Part shown: positions 49,749 through 60,633 of the stretch, one piece after another
Numbering within the stretch: the first letter of the stretch is position 1
How the letters are laid out: every line of letters starts with the position of its first letter
Assembly (NCBI GenBank): GCA_030604885.1
Contig: JAUVUZ010000010.1
Span: forward strand, 37,828 to 101,827
DNA length: 64,000 nucleotides
From: Alphaproteobacteria bacterium
GTDB lineage: Bacteria > Pseudomonadota > Alphaproteobacteria > Rhodospirillales > Rhodospirillaceae
Reading direction: 5' to 3'
Made by a program: the position numbers and the translations under genes
The notes under the pieces: generated by a model
Told to the model about the DNA's origin: nothing
What the model saw: the letters and a program-made list of their open reading frames with translations, nothing else
Database searches by the model: none

Positions 49749-49822
49749 GCGGGTGTAGCTCAATGGTAGAGCAGAAGCTTCCCAAGCTTACGACGAGGGT
49801 TCGATTCCCTTCACCCGCTCCA
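49749..49822 (+). tRNA. tRNA-Gly(CCC)
   Basis: GCGGGTG/CACCCGC acceptor, GAAGC-TTCCCAA-GCTTA anticodon arm, GGTTCGATTCC T-arm, encoded CCA. Confidence 0.96.
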
Positions 49823-49948
49823 AGAATTTCAATGCCTTAGATGAAGCTTAGATGAAGTCGGTGCCCCGCTTCGGCGATCTTAGCGGAAAAAATGCGGAAA
49901 AATTGTTGGCGAATTTCCGCGGTCGGCTGCGAACGAATCGCTGGCAAG

Positions 49949-50277
49949 GGCATGTTCCTCTTCCGCTCGGAGCGCCCCACCTCTCGCCCAATGTCGGAAA
50001 AGACCATCAACGCGGCCTTAAGGCGCCTCGGCTTCTCCAGGAGGAGATGACTGGCCACGGCTTCCGCTCGATGGCCTCGACGCTACTAAACGAGCAAGGA
50101 TGGAATCGCGACGCCATCGAACGCCAACTCGCCCATACCGAACGCAACAGCGTCCGCGCTTCGTGCGACTTCGCTGAGTTTCTTCCCGAACGCCGCAAAG
50201 TGATGCAGGCATGGTCGGACTACCTTGACGCGCTGCGAACACGCAGCACGACAAAAAGTAAAAACACCCAGTCATAA
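49949..50277 (+). pseudogene. Tyrosine-recombinase integrase remnant 1 (5'-truncated, frameshifted)
   Basis: GMFLFRSERPTSRPMSEKTINAALRRLGFS / (frameshift near 50038) / EEMTGHGFRSMASTLLNEQGWNRDAIERQLAHTERNSVRASCDFAEFLPERRKVMQAWSDYLDALR. Tyr expected in RAxY is Cys. Confidence 0.85.
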
Positions 50278-50562: not shown

Positions 50563-51618
50563 CTACCCTTCCCACCGTTTCTTTGCATTAACGGCTTTTT
50601 TTAGTCTATAATCCTGCCTGTCTCCATTCTTTGCCGAAAATCGGGTTGGCAAATCCAATATAGGTTGCGATGGGGAAACTCCCGTCCCTTCCAGGAATTT
50701 GATAATTTTACCCGTGCAAAAAAGTATAAATTCCCTGCATGACTCACTGTATACGCCGTTCATTTTCTTTGCTTTTGAAGGGTCTGTCTCGTTCTTTAAC
50801 AAGCTAAATGTGGCCGATAGCCCCTTAATTAAATGATCCAGAAGAGAATCTCCTTTTGGCCCTCCCTCATCAAAATATGACGACAATATATCAATAGACA
50901 ACCTAGCCAACCTGATGCTCTCGTAGAACTCTATGAATGACAACCCAAGAACATTTTCCATATGGTCTAGGAGTAATTCGTATGCAATGTTTTCGGATTC
51001 TTCCTTTGCGTCATCGATTATGCCCCCACCCCTTACATAATCAATCTCTGACACTATGCCTTCCTTGCAGATAGAGGTCGCCCACATTTGGATTTTTTCA
51101 TTCATCCGCGCATCAATAGGTGAAGCGTAACGTGAATCATCCGGAGACATGTCGATCTTTGATGACGAAACGCCGTAAAATCCATCATATCTAAACAAAT
51201 TGCTGTATTTGAATCTAAACGCGTGGTGTACGTCTTTTTTGCAAATCCTTTTGTCAAATTCCACTCTACTGCTAATTTTTACGGCTTCTGATTTAAGTAG
51301 TTCCACAGGTGCGTGATCAACTATGCTTATGAGGAGGGCGTCCATATTATTAGCAATACCACGTATTCTATCCTTAATCAGATTTGAGATATTGATTTTT
51401 TTGTGCCTATAGAAACTAGAAAGATAGTGTTGGCAATCGAACTCAATTCTAGAAATCAGATTTTTCTTAATTTCTTGGGTCAGGGCGTTGTCGGGGCTCA
51501 GCTTTAGTATATGGCAAATTTTCCTGAATTCATCATCATGAACTGTAAATGATTTATCGTAGTACAAAATAGTATCGTATGCAGGGTCTGACATGATTTC
51601 CTCCGGCTTATTGGGCAA
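50563..51618 (-). CDS. AT-rich orphan hypothetical protein
   Basis: 351-aa ORF with Lys/Ile/Asn-rich composition unlike the host; no family recognised. Confidence 0.75.
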   Translation of the reverse strand: MPNKPEEIMSDPAYDTILYYDKSFTVHDDEFRKICHILKLSPDNALTQEIKKNLISRIEFDCQHYLSSFYRHKKINISNLIKDRIRGIANNMDALLISIVDHAPVELLKSEAVKISSRVEFDKRICKKDVHHAFRFKYSNLFRYDGFYGVSSSKIDMSPDDSRYASPIDARMNEKIQMWATSICKEGIVSEIDYVRGGGIIDDAKEESENIAYELLLDHMENVLGLSFIEFYESIRLARLSIDILSSYFDEGGPKGDSLLDHLIKGLSATFSLLKNETDPSKAKKMNGVYSESCREFILFCTGKIIKFLEGTGVSPSQPILDLPTRFSAKNGDRQDYRLKKAVNAKKRWEG

Positions 51619-51895
51619 TCAACCGATCAATTAGCGCGTGATGTTAAGCAATTTAATCAGGAAATTATCAATTTCTTGTTGGCATGAAGCGCGGATGACC
51701 CCTGTTTTCTATCTTCTGTCCGGGGCGCAACTTCAACTCTCGTTGCTAGGGAAGAGGAATCGCACCTAGTGCGGGCGAAGATAGCCCCGGGTTTTCCGCT
51801 TACGCCTGATCCGAAGCTTGGAGAGTTATTACCAATTTTCCCCGATTGAAAACGGCCTATCAAGAGGCTGGTTAAACCTCAAACGGGAGAAGCAA

Positions 51896-52105
51896 ATGCT
51901 CCAAGGTTCAAACACGCAGGTCGCCCCGAAAGCTATCACCGTAGCCGAGGCTGTACGCATTCTATCAATCGGCCGCACCACGCTCTATGGCCTCATCAAG
52001 GATGGGGAAATCCGGGCGACGAAGCTCGGCCGCAAAACGCTCTTCCTCGCGAAGGACATCGATGCCTTTCTCGACCGCCTGCAGCAGGGCGGAGGTGCGC
52101 GATGA
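51896..52105 (+). CDS. AlpA/excisionase-type HTH DNA-binding protein
   Basis: AITVAEAVRILSIGRTTLYGLIKDGEIRATKLGRKTLFLAKDIDAFLDRL. Confidence 0.85.
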   Translation: MLQGSNTQVAPKAITVAEAVRILSIGRTTLYGLIKDGEIRATKLGRKTLFLAKDIDAFLDRLQQGGGAR

Positions 52106-52377
52106 GCGAGGACCAGAAGATGAATCCGCACGAGATCGCTGATGATCACGTGGAAATCCTGCTGCCCGCCCGGTCGCCCGCCGTCTCAATGAAGGTCGCC
52201 CCACCGCCCGACATAGGTCCGGCATTAGCCAATCTGCGGGATCACCTTACAGAGGTGCTGGCAATTCCCTCGGCAGCGTGGCCGACGGGGCGCGAGGTCG
52301 AGTTGCGGCTTTCGTTCGCCCTCGTTCCGACCGAGGTGGTGGCGGTCGTCAAAAGCGTTCCCTCGGTGGGCGTGTAG
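52102..52377 (+). CDS. Small hypothetical protein
   Basis: 91-aa ORF coupled (ATGA overlap) to the AlpA-like gene. Confidence 0.55.
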   Translation: MSEDQKMNPHEIADDHVEILLPARSPAVSMKVAPPPDIGPALANLRDHLTEVLAIPSAAWPTGREVELRLSFALVPTEVVAVVKSVPSVGV

Positions 52378-52448
52378 TCGAAAGGCAATGGATGGAGCCT
52401 CTCCGTCGGAGAGGTCTCCGTCCATCCCTCAAGAGAAAGAATGTTAGA

Positions 52449-54311
52449 ATGAGTAAATTCCAGGAATTAATTACCTCTGCGCTTCAGTCTGAGGGCTCAA
52501 TTACCATTGTAAATGCCGCCCCGGCACCTCATGCGGACGCACCGATCTATATGGTGCCAATATCCCCGGCGGGGATATCTAACCAGACCGTCCCGCCCTC
52601 TGTTCCTTCTGCGTTCGTCGAGAATGAGGAGCCTCTCTCCTCGAAAACACCACCCGTACTCCGTACTTGCGAGACTGATCAGGAAAAACGGCCCGTCGAG
52701 ATGCTGATGCCTCAGGTCGATCCCATTTCCTGTCTGAAAGCGGAGACGGCGCGGAACAACGCCTTGAGTGGGCACATCGAAGCCCAGAAACGCTTGCGCC
52801 GCCATCAAGTCGAGTTCAGCGACGAGCAGGCATTCCAGGTGCTGCGGAACGACCTATCGGTGCAGCCTCTGTTGAATCTTCGGGACTCCATATCGAGCGC
52901 AGCAATCCCCCCTGTGGATCGTCTCCCGTCGGAGGTGGCGAGGCTTGCGCGGCAGATTGCTGGGGGCGATCTCGGCCGTCTCCAGGTTGCCTGCGCGGGG
53001 CTTATAGGAATAGCCATGGCTGGCGCTCGCGGGAACTGGTGCCTCCGCGATGCGCGTGGCCTCCAGCAGATGCTGACCGACTACCTGATCATTTCCGCTC
53101 CCTCGGGGTGGGGAAAATCGACGATGTTGGGCTTCCTGACGAAGCCCTTTACGGAGTTTGAGTTCCGTTTGCAGCAAGAGGAAATGCTGTCGCGCAAAAG
53201 CACTAGCCCCGAGGCATCTCGTCTCGCCCTCAAGGCTGTGAAGCAGGCGGTGATGACGCAGATCCGGAAGTCCTATCGAAAAATCGGAAATCCGGAGGCG
53301 GTGATGGAAGCGTTTGAGTCCCAGCTCGCCGAGGTGGCGTGCCTGGAATCTCGCCTGGAGGCAGCAATCCAACCCGTTCCGCGACTGCTATTGGATCGGG
53401 TGACCATGGAGCAGTTACCGCACGAGATGGCGGTGCAGGGCGGTGTGGCCACGATCTTCGGCGACGAAGGAGGAATTCTTCGGCAGATCCGGCCGAGCAA
53501 CTCGGATATTTTCGTGAAAGGCGCGACGGGTGAAGCCTTTTCAACATCCACTCGGGGAAGCGGTATCGTGGCCATCCCGCACCCTTGCCTAGCAGTCCTG
53601 TTGCTGGTTCAGCCATCGAAGCTCGATCTCCTTTTTGGAAACGAAGAGCTCGTTGACCAGGGCGTTGCCGCACGGTTCTTGCCAGTTCTGCCGTCCATCG
53701 ACCCCGGCGGTTTTGCTAAGCCCGGGCAGGAAGTGGATGGGACGTGGCTCCGGCACAAGGTCCACTCCCTATTGGGCAAAGGTGAACGCATTCGGATCGG
53801 GGAGGAGGCGCGTCCGCGCCACACGCTGGAGTTCGGGTCAGAGGCAACCAGTGCTGTCGACGAGTTCTCGCGCCGGCTAAAGGGAGAGGATGGCATCGCG
53901 AAGGGAATGCGCCACTTCCTTGATCGCCTGCCGTGGCACGCCAAAAATCTTGCCGGCGCGCTACATCTTCTCAAACATCGGGACCCCGAGGAACGTGCCA
54001 TCGATCTCGGAACGATGCTGGACGGCATCGCCTTCGCCGAGTTCTTTCGGCAGCACGCCGAGGCCGTGTATGATCCAGGCGCTCGTGACGGAGTAATCTT
54101 CGCGCCCAAGATCCTGAGATGGATCAAGCGGGACCGCCCGAAGCGCTTTACCGATCGAGATGCGCACCGTGGCGTCGGCAGTGGACGCTGCGCTGCGGCT
54201 CAGATCCGTGCCGGTCTCGACGAACTTGAGCGAGCGAATTATGTCCGGCACCACCTTACCGGAAGCGGGAGGATGCTTTACCTAGTCCACCCTGCCACAT
54301 ACTTGATGTAG
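52449..54311 (+). CDS. DUF3987 (YfjI-like) protein, mobile-element replication type
   Basis: DYLIISAPSGWGKSTMLGFLTKPFTEFE...GGVATIFGDEGGILRQI...GSGIVAIPHPCLAVLLLVQPSKLDLLFGNEELVDQGVAARFLPV. Confidence 0.82.
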   Translation: MSKFQELITSALQSEGSITIVNAAPAPHADAPIYMVPISPAGISNQTVPPSVPSAFVENEEPLSSKTPPVLRTCETDQEKRPVEMLMPQVDPISCLKAETARNNALSGHIEAQKRLRRHQVEFSDEQAFQVLRNDLSVQPLLNLRDSISSAAIPPVDRLPSEVARLARQIAGGDLGRLQVACAGLIGIAMAGARGNWCLRDARGLQQMLTDYLIISAPSGWGKSTMLGFLTKPFTEFEFRLQQEEMLSRKSTSPEASRLALKAVKQAVMTQIRKSYRKIGNPEAVMEAFESQLAEVACLESRLEAAIQPVPRLLLDRVTMEQLPHEMAVQGGVATIFGDEGGILRQIRPSNSDIFVKGATGEAFSTSTRGSGIVAIPHPCLAVLLLVQPSKLDLLFGNEELVDQGVAARFLPVLPSIDPGGFAKPGQEVDGTWLRHKVHSLLGKGERIRIGEEARPRHTLEFGSEATSAVDEFSRRLKGEDGIAKGMRHFLDRLPWHAKNLAGALHLLKHRDPEERAIDLGTMLDGIAFAEFFRQHAEAVYDPGARDGVIFAPKILRWIKRDRPKRFTDRDAHRGVGSGRCAAAQIRAGLDELERANYVRHHLTGSGRMLYLVHPATYLM

Positions 54312-54402: not shown

Positions 54403-54777
54403 CTACTTGCAGGGGTAGGACAACACCACCGCATTTGCCGCCACGGTGGTGATGCTCAAGTCCGGTGATGCCGGCCGCCCCTGTCGCCCGGGGTTCGCCA
54501 GCAACTTGTTGGTGAGTTCCATCAGGCGGGTTGCGGAGAGGGGGCGATCTTCGGTGGTGCAATAAAGCGGCGGCTTTCCGGCCCCGGCAAGTGCGGAATT
54601 TGCCGACCACATCGCGTCGGCAGCACCTTGGAGGTACGGCACCAGGATCGATAGGTCCCGTGCCTCTTTGAGCTCGACGTACTCTTCAACGGTGATGGCG
54701 TCGGCGGCGTACGCGTTGGGTGTGGCCAGCCCGAAGCCGGCAGCAAAGGCGAGGGGGATAAACCCACGGACTCGCAT
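54403..54777 (-). CDS. Secreted Rap1a/Tai-like protein
   Basis: Signal peptide ending AYA-A; VPYLQGAADAMWSANSAL...PPLYCTTEDRPLSATRLMELTNKLLANPG...TTVAANAVVLSYPCK. Confidence 0.6.
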   Translation of the reverse strand: MRVRGFIPLAFAAGFGLATPNAYAADAITVEEYVELKEARDLSILVPYLQGAADAMWSANSALAGAGKPPLYCTTEDRPLSATRLMELTNKLLANPGRQGRPASPDLSITTVAANAVVLSYPCK

Positions 54778-54824
54778 GATTGGTTCTCCCTGGTTAGGCA
54801 GAGGTCGATGACATCGGGCGATCG

Positions 54825-55172
54825 TCACCAGCTGAGGACATAGCCACCGCGGTTGGTTGAGATCGAGAGCTCGATCACCTCGCACGTGACCAGCGTCACG
54901 TGCGTGTACTTCTGCCCAAAACCGATCGTAATGGGCAGCTTGGTGGGTTTTGACAGACTCACGGGTTTCGGCCACGACTTGCAGTTCCCCCGGTTCACCT
55001 CCACCGCTCTGATCTCGATCGGGTCGTCCCCCTTGTTCATGATCTCGATAAACTGCGCCTGCCCGTCGATCGCATTGACGTTGTATTTCGACGCACTCAA
55101 TTTCACCTCGCCGGCTATCGCGGGTGCGCTCGCGAGCGCCAGCAACACCCCAATCAGTCCGAGCCTCTTCAT
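54825..55172 (-). CDS. Small secreted hypothetical protein
   Basis: Signal peptide MKRLGLIGVLLALASAPAIAGE; beta-rich body with two Cys. Confidence 0.65.
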   Translation of the reverse strand: MKRLGLIGVLLALASAPAIAGEVKLSASKYNVNAIDGQAQFIEIMNKGDDPIEIRAVEVNRGNCKSWPKPVSLSKPTKLPITIGFGQKYTHVTLVTCEVIELSISTNRGGYVLSW

Positions 55173-55201
55173 CCTGTTTCCCCTTGTCCGCTATCCAACC
55201 G

Positions 55202-55309
55202 CTAATCTTCCCGGCGGCTAATCCGGCGTCGCTGTATGACTCCAGCCGCAACCGAGGCGATGACAATGCCGAGCAGTTGCATCAGTGGGTTGGGTCGGTA
55301 GATGAGCAT
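55202..55309 (-). CDS. 35-aa single-TM small protein
   Basis: MLIYRPNPLMQLLGIVIASVAAGVIQRRRISRRED*; SD GGGGAGA upstream of ATG (cAGGGGAGAcatccATG), directly after the stop of the 55326-56705 gene. Not in the ORF track. Confidence 0.6.
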   Translation of the reverse strand: MLIYRPNPLMQLLGIVIASVAAGVIQRRRISRRED

Positions 55310-55325
55310 GGATGTCTCCCCTGAA

Positions 55326-56705
55326 TTATCCTGGCAGCCGTTCGGCCCGAGCCTCGAGCTCGGGCAAGCGAGCGACCAGGTCCTCGAGTTCCGCGATCTC
55401 CCTGGCCTCGACCTCCGACCAGAGCTTCAAATGCCGGTCCAGCATGGCCCATTTCAGCGCGTGGAAGCCGTTCCAGACCAGGCCCAGCCACGCGGCGTAG
55501 TTGGCGTTGAGGATGTTGCCGGTGACGTAGACCTTGCCCGCGTTGACCGTGCCGAAGGTGCCGTAGGCCATCGCCAAGATCATCCGGAACCGCGCGTTCA
55601 GTCGTCCCGGCATGGTGTCCATCAGGCTCTCGCCGAACGGTGCGTCGTGCAGCTTCACCTGCTTGCCGACGTAGAAGGCCCGCAGCAGCACCTCCATGAT
55701 CGTCGTCGGAATCGCGGCCGTGACGAACTGGCGGAAGTCGTAACCGTTCATGAACATCCACTCGACCTGCTTGTCGAACGTCGAACCCCCGACGGGAATA
55801 CCATCGAACATCCGCAACAGCCCCATGAACGGGGCGGGCAGGCCCATGCCGCGGTTGCCGTTGGCAGAGGGCGCGTTCACGTCGGAGAGCAGGTGCCCGA
55901 GCATCCGGCCGAGAAGCTGGAAGACGTTACCGTCCACCGATGGCTTGGTGCTCGGAAGGCTAAGGATCCGCCCATCGACCACCGTGGTGCAGGTGCCACG
56001 CATCATGTCGAGCACGCCGAAAATGAAGCCGAGCAGCGGATCGTGCGCCAGAGAGCGCAGGCGATGGTTGGTGGGATTGAGCGCTTTCGCGGGAGCACCG
56101 ATGAGATCGGTCACCACCGAAGTATCGGGTGCGCCAATCGGGTACCCCTTGCTCAGAGCGTGACTGAGGTCAGGCGGCAGCAGCTTGTTGAATGCCTCCT
56201 GAACGGTTCTGTTGAAAATGCCGTTTACCTTCGTGGCGAAAGCGACGGTAGGCTTCGGCGGAGCCTTGACGCAGAGGACGTCGAGCATCGCCGCGAACAG
56301 GCCGCATCCGCCGGCGATCGCGTAGTCCCAGGCGTCGAGCCCGTAGCGCCGATCGAAGTCCCGGACGTGGGCCTCAATCCGGTGATCGATACGCCGAAAG
56401 TCGTCGACAGACAGGATGTCGGTCAGGCCGAGCGGTGAGGCGTAGCGAGTCTCGGCTTCGGCGTAGATGTCGGCCAGCGGCACCTCGGCTAGTGGAGTCC
56501 GGGCTGCTTCTTGCTCCTCGGCGAGCACAGGTGCTTTTTCCGTCTGATAGGCGGGGCTGCTGAGGATTTCCGCAGAACCCTCCAGTGCGGCGAGCTGTGC
56601 TTTGATGTCGCGAAGGCTGGTCCCGAGTTCCCCATGGGCTGTTTCGATGGCGGCACCCCGCTCCTGAAGCAGTTTGATGCCCTTGACCTCTCGAGAATAG
56701 GGCAT
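55326..56705 (-). CDS. Uncharacterised 459-aa membrane-associated protein
   Basis: Hydrophobic segments DYAIAGGCGLFAAMLDVLCV, FVTAAIPTTIMEVLLRAFYV, MILAMAYGTFGTVNAGKV; coiled-coil-like C-terminus. Confidence 0.75.
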   Translation of the reverse strand: MPYSREVKGIKLLQERGAAIETAHGELGTSLRDIKAQLAALEGSAEILSSPAYQTEKAPVLAEEQEAARTPLAEVPLADIYAEAETRYASPLGLTDILSVDDFRRIDHRIEAHVRDFDRRYGLDAWDYAIAGGCGLFAAMLDVLCVKAPPKPTVAFATKVNGIFNRTVQEAFNKLLPPDLSHALSKGYPIGAPDTSVVTDLIGAPAKALNPTNHRLRSLAHDPLLGFIFGVLDMMRGTCTTVVDGRILSLPSTKPSVDGNVFQLLGRMLGHLLSDVNAPSANGNRGMGLPAPFMGLLRMFDGIPVGGSTFDKQVEWMFMNGYDFRQFVTAAIPTTIMEVLLRAFYVGKQVKLHDAPFGESLMDTMPGRLNARFRMILAMAYGTFGTVNAGKVYVTGNILNANYAAWLGLVWNGFHALKWAMLDRHLKLWSEVEAREIAELEDLVARLPELEARAERLPG

Positions 56706-56708
56706 GGC

Positions 56709-57191
56709 TCATGCCGGCTTCTTGCTTGAGAGCATCTCGATGGCGACCTTGATGCCTGCGATTTCCTCCCGGAAGTACTCGGCGTTGGCCAGCAGACGCT
56801 CCTGGATGGCGTAGAGCTTACGGATGGCTTCGCCCAGGGCGGCGGCAAGTTTTGCGTTTTTGTAGTGTTTGGCGACTGCGTAACCCGCGACACCCAAGAC
56901 CGCGACCGGAGCGGCCAATACGCCGATGCCCGCAACCATGCCCCCTCCGACTACGGCTCCGGCCGCAGCGAGTCCCGAGGTGATACCGGCAGCGGAAAGC
57001 CCGGAGACACCGAGCGTTGAAAGCGCAACAAGGGAACCGGCGCCGCCCGCGCTGGCTCCGAGCGCCGTCGCCATCCCCTCGGTGATGCCGGGGTAGTCCT
57101 TCTCGATCCGGAGGACGATAGCTCTGGTTTCCTCCGTCGCTTCATTTTTGATGCGCCGGATTTCATCGGCGTCGAACGCACTGTCTTCCAT
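56709..57191 (-). CDS. Glycine-zipper membrane protein
   Basis: GASAGGAGSLVALSTLGVSGLSAAGITSGLAAAGAVVGGGMVAGIGVLAAPVAVLGVAGYAVAKHYKNAKLAAALG. Confidence 0.75.
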   Translation of the reverse strand: MEDSAFDADEIRRIKNEATEETRAIVLRIEKDYPGITEGMATALGASAGGAGSLVALSTLGVSGLSAAGITSGLAAAGAVVGGGMVAGIGVLAAPVAVLGVAGYAVAKHYKNAKLAAALGEAIRKLYAIQERLLANAEYFREEIAGIKVAIEMLSSKKPA

Positions 57192-57371
57192 AACCGCTCC
57201 CCCTTTGCCTCTCACAACAGATCTAGCCCGACACTCCGGTCGTGGACTCAGCGGATCAGAGTTCCGGTCTCACGCGCAGCCCGCAAAACCTAACGGATAT
57301 GTCGTCATCGGTGAGTGTTTACGAAGTTCGCTTCATGGTCAATCGCCTTTCCTCAATTCAGAGTTCGAGGC

Positions 57372-57731
57372 ATGGCGACCGACATGAAGCACAGCCTGGG
57401 TCTGCGGATCCGGACGTTCCGGCTGGCCCGGAAGATGACCCAGGAACAGGTGGCGGAAGCCATCAACCGGACACCTGAAGCCGTGTCCAACATTGAGCGC
57501 GGCCAGAGCCTGCCCTCCCTGGATACCCTTGAGCGCCTGGCTCTCTCCCTTGAGGTGCCGCTCGCGGAGTTCTTCGAGAAAGACGGGGGCGCCACCCGTC
57601 AGCGCATCGAGCTAGAGGCGCGCCTTCGGGTGCTGGCGAGGACGATGAGCGACGAGGATCTCGAGGTCTCTGTCGGGCAGGCCGAGGTGCTCTTTCAGGT
57701 CAGATCCCGGGGCACGGTCGACAGAGCCTGA
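57372..57731 (+). CDS. XRE-family transcriptional regulator
   Basis: LGLRIRTFRLARKMTQEQVAEAINRTPEAVSNIERGQSLPSLDTLERLALSLEVPLAEFFE. Confidence 0.9.
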   Translation: MATDMKHSLGLRIRTFRLARKMTQEQVAEAINRTPEAVSNIERGQSLPSLDTLERLALSLEVPLAEFFEKDGGATRQRIELEARLRVLARTMSDEDLEVSVGQAEVLFQVRSRGTVDRA

Positions 57732-57915: not shown

Positions 57916-58314
57916 TTATTCGGCGCCGCGGTCAGCACCGTAGCGCTGTATGTCCAGGACCTGGACCGATGCTTTTTCGATGCGGAACAGGATGCGCAAG
58001 GCGAGCTCGCTGAGCACCAGTTCACGAAGCTCGATCCCGAACAGCCGGCTCTCGGGCGCAACCTGATGGTCGCCGCCGGCCAATCCGGCGATTTTGTCCC
58101 GCATGGTGCGAAGCCAGAGATCTGCGGCAGGCCGATTTTCTGTCGATGCGATCAGATATGCGGCACGCAGTCGATCCTGCGCATGCGGGGTCAGGGTGGC
58201 GGGCGCTTGGGCAGAAGGCGCTACCGGACACCGCTCCGGAGTGCGGCGGATCGTCCGCTTGCGGCAAACCTCCATCACCACTTGGTGGATAGGCAGGCGG
58301 GGATGGCGGCTCAT
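57916..58314 (-). CDS. RelE/ParE-superfamily toxin-like protein
   Basis: LTPHAQDRLRAAYLIASTENRPAADLWLRTMRDKIAGLA...SRLFGIELRELVLSELALRILFRIEKASVQVLDIQRYG. The true start may be internal. Confidence 0.7.
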   Translation of the reverse strand: MSRHPRLPIHQVVMEVCRKRTIRRTPERCPVAPSAQAPATLTPHAQDRLRAAYLIASTENRPAADLWLRTMRDKIAGLAGGDHQVAPESRLFGIELRELVLSELALRILFRIEKASVQVLDIQRYGADRGAE

Positions 58315-58589
58315 TTTGGATTGCGATCAATCGCATCGAAAAAGGTGCGAGCATCGGATGTCTCGCCGGCGAGTGCCTGGTCCAGACTGCGCCGGAGCCC
58401 GAGCAACGTCTCCAGACGTTCGATGTGATCCTGCGTTTGCTGCCAGGCCTGAGCATCCAGCACCACAAGAGATGCGACGCCGTTAACGGTTAGGACCATC
58501 GGGCGCCCAGTTGCTTGGAGGCGTTCTGAGACCTCCTTGGAGTGCCGTTTGAAGTCGGTAAGTGGGATGATGTCGTTGGGGATATCCAT
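58311..58589 (-). CDS. Phd/YefM-family antitoxin
   Basis: IIPLTDFKRHSKEVSERLQATGRPMVLTVNGVASLVVLDAQAWQQTQDHIERLETLLGLRRSLDQALAGE. Confidence 0.88.
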   Translation of the reverse strand: MDIPNDIIPLTDFKRHSKEVSERLQATGRPMVLTVNGVASLVVLDAQAWQQTQDHIERLETLLGLRRSLDQALAGETSDARTFFDAIDRNPK

Positions 58590-58664: not shown

Positions 58665-59294
58665 TCAGCATCCCTGGGAGTAGCCGTACTCGCGAACCCG
58701 ATACGGAGCGTTCCCTTTGCTGAAGGCCTTTGCGAGGTACGTCATTCGCCGGAGGACGTCGCGGTAGGCCATGTCGAACTGCCACACCTGTGCTTCCAAC
58801 GCTGGCCCCTGTTGCGCTGAGGACGGACGAACGAGCATGAGGTGCCCGAGACCCCCATCCTGGCAGCAGAAATGAACCAAGCCCGGCTGAACCACGCCGA
58901 TAACGCCCTGCCAGATGCAATCGATGGAATGAAGAATGCCGTGAGGGTTCTGGATCTTCGAGCCGTCGATGAAGAGGATGACGTGATAATGTGGGACAGG
59001 GCTGCTCACCTGCTCGCGCACCCAAACGTAGTGGACGTCGACATCATCAGAGAAACCGGAGCGGTATCCCTTCATCCGCTTCAACAGTTCGGAGACCTCT
59101 CGGTTTCTTCCGTCGTGGAGGTAGTCAACGGGAAAGCGAACATCGAACCGAACGACGAGGACTTTGCAATGCTGGTTGATCATGTAGTTGAGACGGTTCA
59201 GCATGCTGGTGTGGATGTCTTCACGATAGATCTGGGTGTCGAGGGCTGGTGATAGGCTGGTGAGATGGGACTGAAACTGGTGGGTGGATGCCAT
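58665..59294 (-). CDS. YagK/YfjJ-domain (inovirus Gp2-like) protein
   Basis: VLVVRFDVRFPVDYLHDGRNREVSELLKRMKGYR...VHYVWVREQVSSPVPHYHVILFIDGSKIQNP...MTYLAKAFSKG. Confidence 0.75.
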   Translation of the reverse strand: MASTHQFQSHLTSLSPALDTQIYREDIHTSMLNRLNYMINQHCKVLVVRFDVRFPVDYLHDGRNREVSELLKRMKGYRSGFSDDVDVHYVWVREQVSSPVPHYHVILFIDGSKIQNPHGILHSIDCIWQGVIGVVQPGLVHFCCQDGGLGHLMLVRPSSAQQGPALEAQVWQFDMAYRDVLRRMTYLAKAFSKGNAPYRVREYGYSQGC

Positions 59295-59562: not shown

Positions 59563-60576
59563 TCAGGGCGAGAGGCTTCCGGACCGGAAGCTTCGGAGTT
59601 GCCGCAGCATTTCGTCTTGAAGTTCGATTGGCGCCAAAACCTCGATGGCACCACCCCAGGTGAACAGGTGCCAGCACATCTCTCGAAGACCACCCGCGCG
59701 GAAGCGCACGATCAGCGAACCATCCGGTTGCTCCTCGGTCGTCTGGGTAGGATGGAACAGCCACGCTCGCGCTTCCGCCGCAGCCTCGGGCCTGATGTGC
59801 CAAACCACATCGTATTCGGGTTCCTGGTAGGCGCCAAACGACCGAGAAACATACGCGTCGAGCGAGAACGTCTCGTCCCGCACGAAGCTATCTCGCTCCA
59901 TCTCCACTTCGGATATCTCTGCGAGCGAAAACAGACGGAATCCTGGTGAAGTGGCATCTGCCGTCTTGGCGAGAAGATAGGGTCGGACGCCGTAAATGAA
60001 CCCGTAGGGTTCGACCGTCCGTTGCGTTACGTCGCCCTTGATCCGGCTATCGTACCTGAAGGAAACCATCCGGCTGGCCAGGATTGCGTTGCGCAAGATC
60101 CCGACTAGGCCGTCCGCGATCTTCGGGCGCGGACCAGGGCGTTGGATCAGCATCTCCGACAAAGCCAGAAGTTCATGGTCCGGTTCGATGCGGCGGAGCG
60201 CCGAGCCCGGCAGCGCCGCGCGGATCTTGATCGCGGTGTCGTTCAGAGCCCTGGCGGCGTCGCTGCTCCCATGCCGTTCCATCATCGTGGCGGCGAACTC
60301 GATCGCGGCGACTTCATGGGCTTGGAACGGGTCACCGTTGCCCGTGTGGCTGGCGGGAATCCGCCAGCGCTTGCGCCCATCATCGTCCCAGCTTTCCACG
60401 CAGTCAGGGTAGATTTGCTGAATCGCCTTGAGCATCCGCTCGGCAGTTCGTCGACCCACCTCGAAACGCTCGCAGATCTCGGCAATTCCCCAACCGCAAT
60501 AGGAACCTTGCAGTAGGCGCGCGAGACGTAACAATTCGACGGCCTTCCCAAGGCGCGGGACGTCCTGGTCTTTCAT
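59563..60576 (-). CDS. WYL-domain transcriptional regulator
   Basis: N-terminal HTH (GIAEICERFEVGRRTAERMLKAIQQIYP) and WYL-type core (VSFRYDSRIKGDVTQRTVEPYGFIYGVRPYLLAKTADATSPGFRLFSLAEISEVEM). Confidence 0.88.
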   Translation of the reverse strand: MKDQDVPRLGKAVELLRLARLLQGSYCGWGIAEICERFEVGRRTAERMLKAIQQIYPDCVESWDDDGRKRWRIPASHTGNGDPFQAHEVAAIEFAATMMERHGSSDAARALNDTAIKIRAALPGSALRRIEPDHELLALSEMLIQRPGPRPKIADGLVGILRNAILASRMVSFRYDSRIKGDVTQRTVEPYGFIYGVRPYLLAKTADATSPGFRLFSLAEISEVEMERDSFVRDETFSLDAYVSRSFGAYQEPEYDVVWHIRPEAAAEARAWLFHPTQTTEEQPDGSLIVRFRAGGLREMCWHLFTWGGAIEVLAPIELQDEMLRQLRSFRSGSLSP

Positions 60577-60633
60577 AGGAGGACTCCGGGAGCAGGTGGA
60601 CGTGGAAACTGCATCACGCACCGAGGTCCCAGG

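Follow-up and report, generated by a model that had tools for sequence, protein, structure and literature searches.

Bunzi is an anti-phage system in which bnzA lies directly upstream of bnzB. A TerB domain has been reported in the N-terminal half of full-length BnzA (PMC10952713), a survey has located Bunzi on Salmonella IncHI1 plasmids (PMC11305592), and the mechanism of the system is given as unknown (PMC12926258); a literature search for a mechanism of BnzA/BnzB retrieved none. Pfam TerB was not found at E ≤ 1 in BnzA of the canonical Lactococcus pair (locus L009) or in the partial BnzA of the proteobacterial locus L049, so that the TerB assignment rests on the literature. The window, i.e., the whole 64,000-nt stretch of alphaproteobacterial DNA analyzed here, contains two adjacent genes coding for a glycine-zipper protein and a BnzB homolog. 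With a probability of about 0.6, we regard them as a Bunzi-related two-gene phage-defense cassette with abortive-type membrane action, carried as cargo of a CP4-57-like island. Homology to BnzA and BnzB, the strict pairing of the genes, defense-type neighborhoods, and invariant Asp/His residues are what the sequences themselves show.

The pair heads a series of five minus-strand ORFs faced by a divergent XRE gene, all of them on the strands and at the places given in the preliminary description, including the spacing of about 180 nt. The zipper protein of 160 aa (56709..57191, minus strand) is short and BnzA-like, its counterpart being the zipper region of BnzA; the best start of its gene is the ATG at 57191, whereas the listed start at 57215 is a GTG. 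The start codon of the BnzB homolog (459 aa; 55326..56705, minus strand) is located 3 nt past the zipper stop codon. Downstream follow a 35-aa ORF with one hydrophobic segment, which appears in the ORF list only (55202..55309, minus strand), and the genes of a 115-aa signal-peptide protein (54825..55172, minus strand) and of a weakly Rap1a-immunity-like signal-peptide protein of 124 aa (54403..54777, minus strand). The short gaps within the operon (3, 16, 29, and 47 nt) are consistent with a single transcript. The gene of the 119-aa XRE/Cro-type regulator (57372..57731, plus strand; HTH_3, E = 1.7e-14) is divergent, its start codon lying about 180 nt from that of the zipper gene. The region in between (57192..57371), presumed to hold promoters and operator, contained a weak 8-nt inverted repeat only, no sigma-70 consensus, and nothing beyond chance.

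The 459-aa protein matched the PADLOC BnzB profile PDLC03834 with E = 7.6e-52 over residues 94–425; for calibration, the canonical Lactococcus pair and the partial proteobacterial pair of L049 score 1e-121 to 1e-201 with the PADLOC profiles. Five residues, D142, H214, H221, H271, and D275, are invariant in 22 of 22 aligned sequences and may thus form a catalytic or metal site. The AlphaFold2 (AF2) model was of moderate quality (pLDDT 73); Foldseek searches with it against the PDB and viral structures yielded no fold match, and a PDB sequence search with the BnzB profile gave no match either. Hydropathy analysis indicated few clear transmembrane segments, making membrane insertion uncertain. 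BnzB might be a YdjM-type (PF04307) hydrolase, metal-dependent and located in the membrane, for example a phospholipase, that is released by the zipper protein; the order of its motifs, D...HRxxxxxHD...GHxxSD...GLPxP, resembles PDxD / HRxxTH / SHxxxD of YdjM. However, profile-profile comparison by hhalign lacked significance and did not surpass the reversed control, and BnzB has neither a Pfam nor a structural match, so we consider a YdjM-type hydrolase unlikely. Since the profile comparison was unsupportive and a fold match was lacking, abortive-type membrane defense is favored irrespective of the chemistry of BnzB.

The zipper protein matched the PADLOC BnzA profile with E = 5e-8, covering only positions 303–398 of 544. 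Conversely, a profile of the short zippers matched the zipper region within the long BnzA of L049 (E = 4.6e-10), and direct BLASTP against this protein scored 28.1 bits, whereas 200 shuffles gave at most 23.1, indicating that the BnzA match is not a mere effect of composition; the similarity to BnzA of L009 was not significant in BLASTP. The conserved core, GLSAAGITSGLAAAGAxVGGGMVAGxxVLAAPVA, is flanked by helical ends and comprises 25 invariant columns over Proteobacteria and Bacillota-type sequences, with 44–60% identity to the window protein, whereas BnzB identity over the same phylogenetic distance is only about 25%. Such unusual conservation is in keeping with a tightly constrained element that acts on the membrane. 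The AF2 model of the zipper protein (pLDDT 55) was too poor for use, and a PDB sequence search with the zipper profile returned chance-level matches only. Pfam and NCBIfam gave nothing useful for either the zipper or the 459-aa protein, which is why neither was recognized at first reading. The initial view of the locus as an undescribed system does not hold for the core, because PADLOC recognizes the pair and Bunzi has been published from Salmonella IncHI1 plasmids (PMC11305592); the Bunzi system of that survey is probably the same pair as the plasmid type described below.

A tblastn search with BnzB retrieved 493 plasmids at about 55% identity, mostly from Enterobacter, Salmonella, Klebsiella, Escherichia, and Citrobacter; 437 of the 493 are conjugative. 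The zipper was present in 471 plasmids by tblastn, and in most of the plasmid entries compared it ends just ahead of BnzB, a few having an extra intervening stretch. The closest relative is encoded on a plasmid of Methylomagnum ishizawai (L055), where it adjoins type I-U CRISPR-Cas genes; its zipper and the C-terminal piece of its BnzB, which is interrupted by a transposase, share 73% and 71% identity, respectively, with the window proteins. The pair also occurs in a gammaproteobacterial MAG (L002), and relatives are present on numerous contigs of Bacillota-type phages or mobile elements. On one IMG/VR contig (L026:2911-5374), the zipper is fused to a Sel1-repeat N-terminus with a lipoprotein-like signal. 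The BnzB that follows this fusion likewise has a lipoprotein-like N-terminus; these signals hint at a location in the envelope. Chromosomes rarely carry the pair: BnzB was found in 2 of 399 genomes of the phylum, and the plasmid-type pair in 16 of 5426 E. coli genomes, on plasmids in 15 of the 16.

In nearly all intact BnzB loci, a short zipper lies upstream at a distance of up to about 1.3 kb. Exceptions are L009, with its long BnzA; L010, L013, and L047, in which a 369-aa zipper protein is encoded downstream; the truncated loci L003, L007, and L011; and L033, an apparently solitary BnzB for which no zipper was found. A zipper without BnzB occurred neither in these loci, which were collected by BnzB only, nor in 190 genomes of the class, among which the zipper profile, despite the simple composition of the zipper, matched the source genome only. 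Conservation across phyla argues that both ORFs are more than chance, and as judged from these comparisons zipper and BnzB are a genuine two-gene unit. Defense-type neighbors comprise, besides the CRISPR type I-U genes of L055, Lamassu LmuA/LmuB (L011), PDC-S28 (L010), and HipAB with ter genes (L005). In L011 (970-9062), a Klebsiella IncHI2A plasmid, the truncated BnzB near LmuA/LmuB is cut by an integrase.

Almost all relatives reside on conjugative plasmids (the 437 of 493 mentioned above), mobile elements, or phages, as would also be expected of a factor for exclusion or inter-element competition, used by conjugative plasmids, ICEs, and phages, that would hinder the entry or establishment of competing mobile elements at the membrane and not act on phages generally. 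Such a role has, in our estimate, a low probability, since Bunzi, to which the pair is homologous, is described as anti-phage, since CRISPR-Cas and Lamassu are among the neighbors of the pair, and since defense systems also reside on mobile elements.

The other genes of the operon do not travel with the pair. Around zipper and BnzB in L002, L005, L006, L025, L026, and L055, none of the 35-, 115-, and 124-aa genes and no XRE gene was present; having been seen in no related locus examined, they probably are island-specific cargo. The recurrence of the components in other genomes thus was borne out for zipper and BnzB, not for the XRE gene, the 35-aa ORF, and the two secreted proteins, and the proposed unit of five genes plus XRE shrinks to two genes. 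The 35-aa ORF, supported by nothing beyond being open, is possibly no gene. The 115- and 124-aa proteins, the N-termini of which look signal-peptide-like by inspection, are best read as products of island cargo on a shared transcript. The 115-aa protein matches phrog_36014 (E = 5e-5) and has one detectable plasmid relative, with 27% identity over 111 aa, in a CP4-57-like island of Plesiomonas that encodes AlpA, an inovirus-Gp2-type protein, a GTPase, a WYL protein, CbtA, and RadC, with no BnzB nearby. An assignment as YfjT was discarded for lack of similarity, though one relative adjoins a YfjT-like gene. In the 124-aa protein, the pattern sought for Rap1a/Tai immunity proteins can be made out (a putative signal peptide, Y..GxADA, an inner Cys, and a C-terminal PC motif); its match to PF18602 (E = 0.13, 13.2 bits) did not reach the cut-off of 27.7, and a locally built Rap1a profile gave a weak, collinear match of 8.5 bits (reversed control, –1.0). 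Its sole foreign match (L052) proved to be a spurious frame. Relatives of the 115- and 124-aa proteins were absent from the viral contigs searched.

These data also bear on the idea that the five genes and the XRE gene form one system, with zipper/BnzB as toxin, the Rap1a-like and the 115-aa protein as periplasmic immunity proteins, and XRE as repressor. The intergenic gaps of 3–47 nt and the weak Rap1a-likeness of the last gene product would suit it, as would a different, membrane-tailed XRE protein encoded ahead of the zipper in the Bacillota-type loci L012 and L030, which indicates that association with XRE proteins may have evolved repeatedly. However, the three downstream genes occur in no other zipper/BnzB locus, the island of the 115-aa relative is devoid of BnzB, and the closest relatives of the pair lack XRE, so that a single six-gene system appears quite improbable.

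The host island starts at a tRNA-Gly(ccc) gene (49749..49822, plus strand; ARAGORN), followed by a tyrosine integrase remnant (49852..50277, plus strand) that matches Phage_integrase with E = 1e-5, just below the cut-off and in its C-terminal part only. The N-terminus is missing, and the continuation in the middle part is in a different frame; with such a frame-shifted, C-terminal remnant the island probably is no longer self-mobile. A low-GC ORF of 351 aa (50563-51618; GC3 0.43) had no significant match in Pfam, PHROG, or PADLOC. Next come an AlpA-like regulator (51818..52105, plus strand; HTH_17, E = 1e-13; excisionase PHROGs) and a YfjI-like DUF3987 protein (52278..54311, plus strand; PF13148, E = 4e-42); the pair is followed by a Phd-type antitoxin gene, a YfjJ-like gene (58665..59294, minus strand; PF11726 YagK_YfjJ_C, E = 8e-14), and a WYL gene. 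The antitoxin gene (58311-58589) overlaps a 132-aa ORF (region 57916-58589), which looks like a toxin partner and matched no Pfam family. The WYL-domain regulator (59563-60621) is encoded toward the right of the island; similar ones occur near defense genes. The GC content is about 60–63% in the cargo, as compared to about 70% in the sequence leftward. A direct repeat of the tRNA-Gly 3' end (att) was not found within the 64,000-nt window. With AlpA, DUF3987, and YfjJ at a tRNA gene, albeit without an intact integrase and a flanking repeat, the gene content identifies the island as CP4-57-like.

Given the fragmentary integrase and the missing N-terminal half of BnzA, the pair could be decayed, inactive cargo, i.e., a truncated BnzA remnant in a dying island. 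We deem this highly improbable: the short form is 57–73% identical across different elements, and the window genes are intact, arguing for an established design rather than a local truncation.

In the favored reading, a Bunzi-related defense cassette, the zipper protein would most likely act on the membrane, and BnzB, associated with the membrane, would be its partner or an enzyme. Upon infection, both would jointly damage or depolarize the membrane, so that the infected cell stops ahead of phage release; XRE probably limits expression. The original suggestion of an abortive-infection-like membrane module thus pointed in the right direction insofar as the pair is homologous to the Bunzi proteins, while the anti-phage action of the window copy, its membrane site and abortive mode, the identity of the effector, and regulation by XRE are what we infer. 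Because the N-terminal half of BnzA is absent, the window pair may have a different mode of sensing or may not be a complete system. The variable neighbors of related pairs (protease, Sel1 repeats, ADP-ribosylglycohydrolase, membrane-tailed XRE) may suggest interchangeable triggers. It is conceivable, if doubtful, that zipper and BnzB are a general membrane-attack core common to Bunzi, PDC-M09, and the short pairs, BnzB representing a novel kind of metal enzyme in the membrane; the element-specific sensors or triggers would then, just as tentatively, be the long BnzA N-terminus, the trypsin-like protease, the Sel1 repeats of L026, the ADP-ribosylglycohydrolase of L044, and the membrane XRE proteins.

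Bearers of the pair include soil bacteria at one end and hospital plasmids and gut phages at the other. With the system reduced to zipper and BnzB, the two-gene form reveals the indispensable parts of Bunzi; the invariant residues of BnzB are specific targets for mutagenesis, and since about 470 plasmids of enterobacteria, including many clinical ones, carry the pair, convenient copies for laboratory tests exist. The compact variant and its wide distribution should make the mechanism of Bunzi easier to test.

Compared with known systems, the island shares AlpA, DUF3987 (YfjI), YfjJ, a WYL-type regulator (YfjR), and anti-phage cargo with CP4-57, the cryptic prophage of E. coli K-12. It differs in gene order, in its tRNA-Gly site, and in carrying Bunzi-type cargo, whereas abpAB/rnlAB are the anti-phage cargo of CP4-57. 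The IncHI2-type plasmid pair resembles the window pair in order and spacing, with 59% (zipper) and 55% (BnzB) identity over the full length, but is preceded by a trypsin-like protease and followed by HipAB, without XRE and secreted genes. The protease gene lies directly upstream of zipper and BnzB in L005 (6638-7285), L006 (6403-7059), and L025 (849-1505). The protease contains the motifs TAAH, DSA, and GCSGGP, its triad being apparently complete, and by analogy with gasdermin systems it could be a proteolytic trigger. In the PADLOC candidate PDC-M09, the BnzB homolog of L013 is followed by PDC-M09A, which has a glycine-rich, zipper-like stretch; here the zipper gene is downstream, its product has 369 aa, and the zipper proteins cannot be aligned confidently. 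The same arrangement of a BnzB homolog and a 369-aa zipper protein occupies L013:3294-5847 and L010:5836-8389. As the 369-aa protein of L013 is PDC-M09A, the PDC-M09 candidate is linked to Bunzi. With Bunzi itself, the locus shares the BnzB homolog, the zipper region of BnzA, and the adjacent gene order, bnzA being directly upstream of bnzB here as in L002, L005, L006, L025, L009, and L049. In contrast, BnzA has about 545 aa as compared to 160 aa here, where the N-terminal half is absent, and the window BnzB is only about 26% identical to that of Lactococcus. Lacking a full-length BnzA, the pair should not be classed with canonical Bunzi; at the level of sequence, it is a compact, TerB-less relative of this anti-phage system.
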